Shown piece after piece: positions 714 to 4,777 of a stretch of DNA of 26,306 nt. The translations under genes were made by a program, and so were the position numbers. Positions within the stretch are counted from its first letter, which is position 1. Every line of letters starts with the position of its first letter. The stretch is from a virus. Where the stretch lies: the IMG/VR virus record IMGVR_UViG_3300035201_000081, positions 1 through 26,306 of that record. One strand, written 5' to 3'. The notes under the pieces were generated by a model. That model was not told where the DNA came from. It ran no database searches and saw only the letters and a program-made list of their open reading frames with translations.

Positions 714-1943
714 ATGAAATTTACTAACTTCATTAGCGAAGCTAGGACTGCTGCTGGAGAGACCGCTGTTAAGAGAGGTCTACAACACGTTGGTCACGGC
801 TATTATGCAGACAGATCTGGTACTATAGTTGCTAAATCAGAGGGCGGTCAAAGACTGGTACCTGTTGATCCACAGGAGGCAGAGGTTGTACAACAAGATG
901 CTGCTACTGGATTTGAAGAAGATGAAGCTAATGGTAGTGTAGAAGATAAGGGTGAAGTCGCAATGACATTTGGTCGTTTCAATCCTCCTACCATTGGTCA
1001 TCAGAAAGTATTTGATAAGGTGGCTTCTGAATCAACAGGAGAGTATAGAATTTATCCATCACGTAAGGTGGATCCAAAACAGAATCCTCTTCAACCAGTT
1101 GAGAAGATTAATTTTATGAAGAAGATGTTTCCTAATCACGCTGAAGCAATTCAGAATGATGATAAGATGGGGAACATCTTTGATGTATTGAACGCATTGA
1201 ATGAAGAAGGTTACAGTTCTATTAAGATGATCGTTGGTGATGATAGGGTGTCTGAGTTCAGTTCATTACTAGAAAAGTATAACGGTGTAGCATATAATTT
1301 CGAAGACGGATTAGAGGTCAAGTCTGCAGGTGCTAGAGACCCTGATGCTGAAGGTGCTGAAGGTATGTCAGCATCTAAGATGAGAGCATTCGCTGCAGAG
1401 AATGACCTAAAAGGTTTTGCTAAGGGTATCCCTAATGGGGATGAGTCTTTGGCATCTAACTTAATGAATGCTGTACGTAGAGGTATGGGTGTAACTTCTG
1501 AAGAGAAGACACCATCTGGTGAACCTAAGAAGACTGAGAAGGTGACTGAACTCTGGAAGATCGCACCTAAATTTGATCAGCAAGGTCTACGTGAAGCATA
1601 CGTTAATGAAGAAGTATTCCAGATGGGTTCTCTAGTAGAACACAATGACACTGGGGTACAAGGTGAGGTAGTGTACCGTGGAACCAACTATGTAATCTTT
1701 GAAGATTGCCACGGTTGGAGATTCCGTGTATGGTTAACCTCTCTCAATGAAGTGACACAGAATGAAGTTGATCCTGATGAGCAACACCATTCTGCTGATG
1801 ATCATAGTGGAAACACTTGGAAGGTCGGAACTGATACATATAGGAAGGCACTACAGGATATGACTCCTGGTCAAGCCACTGGCAGGTTCACTACTATGCC
1901 AGCTGTCAGTAAAAAGTTCAGCGATTTCAGAAAAACTAAATAG
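714..1943 (+). CDS. Nucleotidyltransferase-domain protein with T4-like capsid-targeting N-terminus
   Basis: The 409-residue protein has three parts. Residues 1-11 (MKFTNFISEAR) closely resemble the capsid-targeting sequence of T4 internal head proteins (MKTYQEFIAEA, from memory), and I-S-E at 7-9 fits the I/L-X-E cleavage rule of the T4 prohead protease. Residues about 82-250 hold a cytidylyltransferase-like (NMN adenylyltransferase/HIGH-superfamily) fold: GRFNPPTIGH at 87-96, with T-I-G-H in place of H-x-G-H, and SASKMR at 219-224, like the second ATP-binding motif. Residues about 295-350 form a small beta-rich region (GVQGEVVYRGTNYVIFED) that resembles an SH3/KOW-type barrel. A nucleotide-transfer enzyme packaged in the head is inferred; the substrate is unknown. 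A late-type octamer precedes it. Confidence 0.75.
   Translation: MKFTNFISEARTAAGETAVKRGLQHVGHGYYADRSGTIVAKSEGGQRLVPVDPQEAEVVQQDAATGFEEDEANGSVEDKGEVAMTFGRFNPPTIGHQKVFDKVASESTGEYRIYPSRKVDPKQNPLQPVEKINFMKKMFPNHAEAIQNDDKMGNIFDVLNALNEEGYSSIKMIVGDDRVSEFSSLLEKYNGVAYNFEDGLEVKSAGARDPDAEGAEGMSASKMRAFAAENDLKGFAKGIPNGDESLASNLMNAVRRGMGVTSEEKTPSGEPKKTEKVTELWKIAPKFDQQGLREAYVNEEVFQMGSLVEHNDTGVQGEVVYRGTNYVIFEDCHGWRFRVWLTSLNEVTQNEVDPDEQHHSADDHSGNTWKVGTDTYRKALQDMTPGQATGRFTTMPAVSKKFSDFRKTK
1935..1942 (+). promoter_or_regulatory. Possible variant late promoter ACTAAATA
   Basis: ACTAAATA overlaps the stop codon of the nucleotidyltransferase gene and lies 23 bases before the next ATG. It differs from T4 TATAAATA at two positions. 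The same CTAAATA core recurs at several other junctions in this window (11544, 11884, 20936, 25624), which is the main support. Confidence 0.35.
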
Positions 1944-3943: not shown

Positions 3944-4777
3944 ATGGCAGTCCACGGAAAAATAGACGCTGCAGCCTTTAGTAATACTATAGGGGTCACC
4001 AATGGTGACGCTACAGTATCTAAGAACGCGGGCGATACAGTTGCTGTAGGTGATGTGCTTAATATTAGTAGTGTAAACTACATCGTTAAGCAAGTAACTA
4101 GCACAACTGCAATAGAATTGCATAAGAATTATGCAGGAAGCACAGCAACAGTTGCTGCTGCATCCGTTATAAAGAGAACTCCTCCTAAAGCAGTTGCAGA
4201 ATATGTAATTGTTGGTGGTGACTCTAACTCATACGATCTAGTCTTTGTTGACACAACTGAGGATAGCATCGCATCAAACAAAACCCGTGGTATTTCTGGA
4301 CCTGGTTGGTGGTTATATCGTTCATTCGTTTCATCTTCAGGTTTAACTAAGCACAAGGCAGAATGCCTGGTACCTTTGAAAGTTGCTGCTGGTTCAGCAG
4401 GTGACTTTGCTCAGGATACTATTGACGCTGATGTACTTGAGACAATCACAGTTGGTACACAACCTGCTAACTCCACCTCATCTTCTGGTGCTGGAACATT
4501 CGTTGCTGCATTTACAAGAGATCAGTCTGGTACTAAGCAGTACAAGTGGCAACGTCAGACAGCATCCGCTACTACTCGTTGGGTAGATATTAAGGGTGGT
4601 GCTGGTGCACTTGATGCAGGTATCACATACGCTGACTTCACTACTGCAACTCTTGCATACAGTGCACTTGCTGGTACTACACTTAACGGTTACAAGTATC
4701 GTTGCGTACTGAACACAAGTAAGGGTGCTGAAACTAAGTACACTAATGGTGCTGCTACACTAACGTTTGGTAGCTAA
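3944..4777 (+). CDS. Virion surface protein with C-terminal Ig-like domain
   Basis: The 277-residue protein is rich in Ala, Thr, Ser and Gly and almost all beta in character, as expected of a phage decoration, tail or fibre-associated protein. Residues about 1-75 are a beta-rich N-terminal region with repeated Val/Thr strands. Residues about 80-150 include the aromatic GPGWWLYRSF. Residues about 170-277 match the pattern of bacterial and phage Ig-like domains: YKWQRQT strand, TTRWVDI, then LNGYKYRCVL with the central Cys, and a final TNGAATLTF strand. Such domains are often displayed on T4-like capsids and tails and are thought to bind carbohydrate weakly. The perfect late promoter upstream supports a structural role. 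The exact location in the virion is unknown. Confidence 0.75.
   Translation: MAVHGKIDAAAFSNTIGVTNGDATVSKNAGDTVAVGDVLNISSVNYIVKQVTSTTAIELHKNYAGSTATVAAASVIKRTPPKAVAEYVIVGGDSNSYDLVFVDTTEDSIASNKTRGISGPGWWLYRSFVSSSGLTKHKAECLVPLKVAAGSAGDFAQDTIDADVLETITVGTQPANSTSSSGAGTFVAAFTRDQSGTKQYKWQRQTASATTRWVDIKGGAGALDAGITYADFTTATLAYSALAGTTLNGYKYRCVLNTSKGAETKYTNGAATLTFGS

Follow-up and report, generated by a model that had tools for sequence, protein, structure and literature searches.

The nucleotidyltransferase described here is probably an enzyme packed in the head of a marine T4-like cyanophage and delivered with the DNA, its predicted payload being of the NMNAT/PPAT type. This is our best explanation because the protein carries a T4-like tag, has relatives in virions, and shares the tag with other virion enzymes. 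The gene lies in the window, by which we mean the whole 26,306-nucleotide stretch of DNA analyzed, a 26-kb virus record that is a fragment without capsid genes of its own. Pfam identified nrdA in the window, and psbA, nrdB, and a transaldolase were recognized by eye from the translations.

The open reading frame encodes 409 amino acids, starting MKFTNFISEARTAAGETA, and belongs to the family annotated "cytidyltransferase" in T4-like cyanophages, which includes Syn9 gp184. The window protein matches 555 phage records, with at least 80% coverage in 386 and a top identity of 47%, and it matches PHROG 395 (cytidyltransferase) at 1e-87. The Pfam domain CTP_transf_like is sub-threshold on the window copy (15.7 versus a cutoff of 21 bits) and passes the cutoff in two orthologues, Syn9 gp184 and S-CREM2 gp154. 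Database names for the enzyme differ: cytidyltransferase, NadR-like, and NMNAT are all in use. The features discussed below are as follows.

1-682, + strand: neighboring gene, DUF6267 protein, cut by the window start
682-689, + strand: AATAAATA, candidate late promoter, 24 nt before the start codon
714-1943, + strand: predicted NMNAT/PPAT-type nucleotidyltransferase, whole ORF, orthologue of Syn9 gp184
714-740, + strand: capsid-targeting-type signal MKFTNFISE, residues 1 to 9; predicted cleavage between Glu9 and Ala10, after base 740
747-860, + strand: mini-domain, residues 12 to 49, from HMM search and structural model
951-1487, + strand: nucleotidyltransferase domain, residues 80 to 258, confidently modeled
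972-1001, + strand: GRFNPPTIGH, (T/H)xGH active-site motif, residues 87 to 96
1368-1385, + strand: SASKMR motif, residues 219 to 224
1560-1772, + strand: C-terminal SH3-like module, residues 283 to 353, with modeled strands
3944-4777, + strand: neighboring gene, homologue of S-SZBM1_136

A conserved capsid-targeting-type signal opens the enzyme

Mutagenesis of the T4 internal protein IPIII assigned targeting to residues 4 and 7 and processing to residues 8 and 10 of its capsid-targeting sequence (CTS), and T4 gp21 cleaves after L/I-x-E (PMC9026906). Residues F3, F6, I7, E9, and A10 of the window protein correspond to CTS positions 4, 7, 8, 10, and 11, with one residue fewer between the initiator methionine and the first aromatic residue. 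This confirms the resemblance to T4 internal proteins that an earlier note on this DNA had drawn. The note had also held that I-S-E at residues 7 to 9 fits the prohead protease rule, and the predicted site I7-S8-E9/A10 does conform to L/I-x-E.

The F3 column is invariant in 39 homologues, and E9 is at least 90% conserved. In a similarity-based collection of homologues, conservation falls on the positions that IPIII mutagenesis had identified, and the linker behind them varies or is absent. The signal pattern was used to gather part of alignment A1, so the fair measure of conservation is the count among 30 dereplicated homologues gathered by similarity only. The canonical signal is present in 20 of these, several of which begin with GTG or TTG; a further 7 have a variant that is one residue longer (FKEHxLxEA). 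The remaining 3 lack it, although one of them (L041) has VAINSFKNYLVE a few residues past the scanned stretch. A table of motif residues derived from a regular expression presupposes the motif and was excluded as evidence of conservation. All nine named cyanophages checked (Syn9, S-CREM1, S-CREM2, S-CRM01, S-N03, S-H34, S-B68, S-SZBM1, and S-SCSM1) carry the signal, as do P-SSM2 and P-RSM6. Aligned across homologues, the N-terminal signal that the earlier note had pointed to is conserved, the exceptions being S-RSM4 and two jumbo phages that are not T4-like, GAP32 and Cassandra.

Because these last homologues do without the signal, the enzyme fold does not need it. What follows the signal also differs: in one group the mini-domain and linker together span about 70 residues, another group has almost nothing, and in one fusion protein (L045) the signal opens an 876-amino-acid polypeptide. 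The possibility that the N-terminal motif is a piece of the enzyme fold was ruled out by the signal-less homologues and by this variation in the linker.

The signal is a module that recurs on other proteins

We searched N-termini for the pattern M-x(1,2)-[FY]-xx-[FY]-[LIVFM]-x-E. The expected number per cyanophage proteome is 0.07 to 0.08, and we observed 4 in S-CREM2 and 3 in S-SZBM1. Searched as DNA against the 177-kb genome of Syn9, the pattern has a single match, which is at the nucleotidyltransferase gene, and the reversed control gave 0. A chance resemblance to the CTS is ruled out by the conservation together with this enrichment.

A scan of IMG/VR with the back-translated signal alone found at least 123 ORF starts, falling into about 29 clusters among the matches listed. 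The nucleotidyltransferase cluster accounts for 59 of the matches listed and the remainder fall in 28 other clusters, including a GNAT acetyltransferase, a DPBB protein, and DUF6267; the 107 matches listed that have complete ORFs are all at least 60 amino acids long. Since its bearers are spread over other clusters, the signal is a module, of which the nucleotidyltransferase is the commonest bearer among the matches listed. In S-CREM2, a SAM lyase, a kinase, and gp136, which are otherwise unrelated, share the signal, and all are in the virion list. A similar core, RFASFMAEA, begins at residue 18 of gp12, a virion protein of the same phage annotated "Cas9," and the relatives of gp12 in S-N03, S-H34, S-B68, and S-CRM01 carry one at a comparable offset.

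Several individual bearers were also observed. A DUF6267-type protein on L095 (4695-5945; also on L121 and L153) has its own capsid-targeting-type N-terminus, MKSFKSFITEA. Two adjacent genes on L107 (3736-4152 and 4149-4532) each open with the signal; the first has no Pfam match, and the second encodes a GNAT acetyltransferase. A small family of about 105 amino acids marked by VNISGDFNG (S-SZBM1_191, SSCSM1_30, and L145 426-755) has the signal but no reported virion member, and might consist of core proteins that are degraded during maturation. In T4 itself (NC_000866 19101-19130; L226), just one ORF, of 54 amino acids and starting MKTFKEFIKED, matches the signal exactly at the DNA level.

Orthologues of the enzyme are present in virion proteomes

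Orthologues of the nucleotidyltransferase are reported in the virions of S-CREM2, S-SZBM1, and S-SCSM1 (PMC10665884, PMC9146016, PMC9602691), with 3 peptides in S-CREM2 and 2 in S-SZBM1. These proteins, named NMNAT or cytidyltransferase, are 31 to 47% identical to the window protein, and all three bear the signal. None of the three papers refers to a targeting signal; they allow for co-purification, of which the S-CREM2 authors warn.

We then related the exact N-terminal motif, at annotated protein starts, to virion membership. In S-CREM2, the motif is found in 4 of 219 proteins (gp6 SAM lyase, gp14 kinase, gp136, and gp154), and the virion list includes all 4 (hypergeometric p=0.003). The corresponding fractions are 1/3 in S-SZBM1 and 1/2 in S-SCSM1, for which membership was taken from the tags in the record (48 proteins; the paper gives 45). 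When the three phages are pooled, 6 of 9 motif proteins are in virions, versus 130/719 (p=0.0016); with the enzyme itself removed, the association is 3/6 (p=0.07). The signal-bearing proteins not reported in virions are S-SZBM1_191, S-SZBM1_192, and SSCSM1_30. Taken together, the orthologues in three virion proteomes, the conserved tag, and its presence on unrelated virion enzymes give good, if indirect, support to the earlier suggestion that the enzyme is packed in the head.

The predicted enzyme domain has an NMNAT/PPAT-type fold

An AlphaFold model of the window protein was built from 39 homologues (mean pLDDT, 78.9). In this model, residues 3 to 9 form a weakly predicted N-terminal helix, and about residues 12 to 50 form a compact alpha+beta mini-domain that is followed by a flexible linker. 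C-terminal to the enzyme domain, a beta module spans about residues 305 to 346 (strands 307 to 346) and is followed by a tail. Foldseek matched the enzyme domain best to NadM (1.2e-6), then to PPAT/CoaD (1e-5), and also to NadD, at 13 to 19% identity; the majority of the enzyme matches are NMN/NaMN adenylyltransferases. Among the 39 aligned homologues, G87, R88, P91, P92, T93, G95, H96, G175, D177, R178, S219, and R224 are invariant, and the (T/H)xGH and SxxxxR signatures are therefore intact. A search of the family profile against the sequences of solved structures gave no match.

As modeled, then, the enzyme is of the NMNAT/PPAT-type fold with intact active-site motifs, and both the fold match and the invariant residues uphold the earlier assignment to NMNAT-like enzymes from GRFNPPTIGH and SASKMR. 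Of the two motifs, SASKMR lies outside the span 714-1000 given in the note. NadM, NadD, and PPAT share the fold and both motifs with the window protein, which differs in its low identity to them (about 14%) and in its extra N- and C-terminal modules.

The beta module is named SH3-like because its Foldseek matches include MscS beta domains and integrases. It also occurs without the enzyme domain: three relatives (L100, L184, and L191) consist of signal, mini-domain, and SH3-like module, and a fourth (L195) has only the signal and the SH3-like module. The catalytic motifs are altered in four others (L130, L134, L172, and L141). In S-RSM4, the 84-amino-acid product of SRSM4_062 (L254 3049-3303; PHROG 4808), annotated as a ribonucleotide reductase alpha subunit, resembles the C-terminal SH3-like module of the nucleotidyltransferase as a separate gene, and its name is probably wrong.

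A mini-domain is shared with other virion proteins

We built an HMM of residues 12 to 49 from homologues of the window family only and searched the 418 proteins of S-CREM2 and S-SZBM1. There were exactly two matches, the S-CREM2 virion kinase gp14 (2e-21) and the "Cas9" gp12 (5e-15). A tblastn search with the gp12 N-terminus found, besides gp12 relatives, mainly the N-termini of cyanophage nucleotidyltransferases (best 3e-6, many weaker). In a profile-profile comparison of A3 with A2, member sequences are shared between the two profiles, and so the case for a shared mini-domain rests on the HMM search. A PDB fold search with the mini-domain gave nothing significant. No Pfam domain was found in gp12, for which "Cas9" is thus an annotation name only.

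The mini-domain is also found ahead of a 993-amino-acid open frame (L065) and twice in one frame (L108). On L157 (9941-10777), it precedes an ADP-ribosyltransferase (Pfam PF03496, 1.3e-16), a possible Alt analogue whose N-terminus is not a canonical signal. The S-CREM2 genes gp12 to gp15 (L085 7704-13331) are four adjacent genes, each detected in the virion.

The sharing of the mini-domain suggests, from sequence comparison, a delivery chassis with interchangeable payloads. Tentatively, and with somewhat more doubt than confidence, we extend this to a general head-delivery chassis of marine T4-like phages, made of a capsid-targeting tag, often with the 38-residue "SDGHG" mini-domain, and swapped payload enzymes. 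The payloads in that reading would be the nucleotidyltransferase, the kinase, the Cas9-annotated protein, and the ADP-ribosyltransferase, and the mini-domain may have a role in packaging.

Genomic context

The candidate late promoter at 682-689 fits NATAAATA, the late promoter consensus of cyanophages (PMC2984593). It is suggestive only: family-wide statistics are mixed, with one of two motif definitions not significant, and ATAAATA shows no overall enrichment across the window. Downstream, the product of 3944-4777 is homologous to S-SZBM1_136, which mass spectrometry identified in virions. The operon around the enzyme in S-SCSM1 includes seven genes, the enzyme among them, that are tagged as virion proteins. 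Of 6 long contigs that have homologues, 4 were found to encode an S77 (gp21-type) prohead protease. No signal was seen on the DUF6267 copies of Syn9, S-SZBM1, P-RSM6, and S-RSM4. The DUF6267 neighbor (also L083 19031-19993) has a conserved KxDGAPA that resembles motif I of nucleotidyl ligases.

Proposed mechanism and alternatives

We propose that, late in infection, MKFTNFISE would bind the prohead core. A gp21-type prohead protease would be expected to cut after E9, and the mature protein, from Ala10 onward, would stay in the head, pass into the next host together with the DNA, and act there ahead of phage gene expression. It would transfer a nucleotidyl group to a small phosphate acceptor, our leading guess being the adenylylation of a mononucleotide, NMN or NaMN. 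This might serve to maintain the supply of NAD-type cofactors while the host is taken over, or in the face of an NAD-depleting defense. A role in NAD supply has already been speculated for the orthologues (PMC9602691, PMC10665884). The canonical NAD salvage route needs NMN adenylyltransferase (PMC12774641), which would make countering such a defense a natural extension.

The part of this proposal most exposed to an alternative is the substrate. The enzyme could be packaged as proposed and act on phosphopantetheine, a cytidylyl acceptor, or a nucleic-acid-related one, a serious possibility that we nevertheless rate below an NMN-type reaction. PPAT/CoaD is among the low-identity structural matches, solved structures gave no sequence match, and the database names are varied; against this, NadM is the best Foldseek match, and most enzyme matches use NMN or NaMN. 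We think it unlikely that the protein is instead a prohead-core or internal structural protein like IPIII, with an enzyme domain that is optional and in places vestigial. The relatives that have lost the enzyme domain or carry altered catalytic motifs would fit such a protein, as would the influence of T4 IPIII on head assembly (PMC9026906), but none of the active-site residues varies across the alignment of 39 homologues. Moreover, the enzyme domain appears to be selected in its own right, since S-RSM4, GAP32, and Cassandra have it without the signal.

Less likely still is an ordinary metabolic enzyme of the infection that sticks to virions at purification, its N-terminal motif serving some other purpose. 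The low peptide counts, the caution of the S-CREM2 authors, and the existence of signal-free homologues speak for it. However, virion sets from three laboratories and three phages contain the enzyme or its orthologue, abundant enzymes of infection such as NrdA are missing from the lists, and the motif is of the type mapped experimentally in T4 and recurs on other virion enzymes.

The packaged enzyme that we favor can be compared with known T4 systems. Like the CTS of IPI to IPIII (PMC9026906), the cyanophage signal is a ten-residue N-terminus that has aromatic residues at both targeting positions and L/I-x-E just ahead of the cleavage point, and it is borne by otherwise unrelated proteins. Unlike the CTS, it sits on a 409-amino-acid enzyme, is one residue shorter before the first aromatic, and is often followed by a shared mini-domain; the cut here is a predicted one. 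The comparison with T4 Alt made in the earlier note survives as a functional analogy: both would be enzymes loaded into the head in advance and carried in along with the DNA, but the window protein is not homologous to Alt, has a different chemistry, and yielded no ADP-ribosyltransferase domain in a Pfam search.

The T4 CTS and the detection of NMNAT-like proteins in cyanophage virions are already known, and a review of the T4 work considered that the CTS is perhaps a general device of T4-like phages (PMC9026906). Our literature search, which took in few subscription papers and not the Syn9 and S-PM2 virion studies, found none that links the CTS to cyanophage NMNAT-like virion proteins or describes the shared mini-domain.

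If our proposal is correct, the T4 internal-protein system, known mainly from coliphages, would reach a widespread family of cyanophage enzymes, and the puzzling NMNAT, kinases, and SAM lyase in cyanophage virion proteomes would be explained. Given only a genome, a ten-residue rule would predict the proteins that a marine T4-like phage takes into the host cell, and would name candidates for early host takeover and counter-defense in ecologically abundant viruses. Should the chassis reading also hold, these phages would deliver a predictable arsenal of pre-packed proteins into cyanobacteria.
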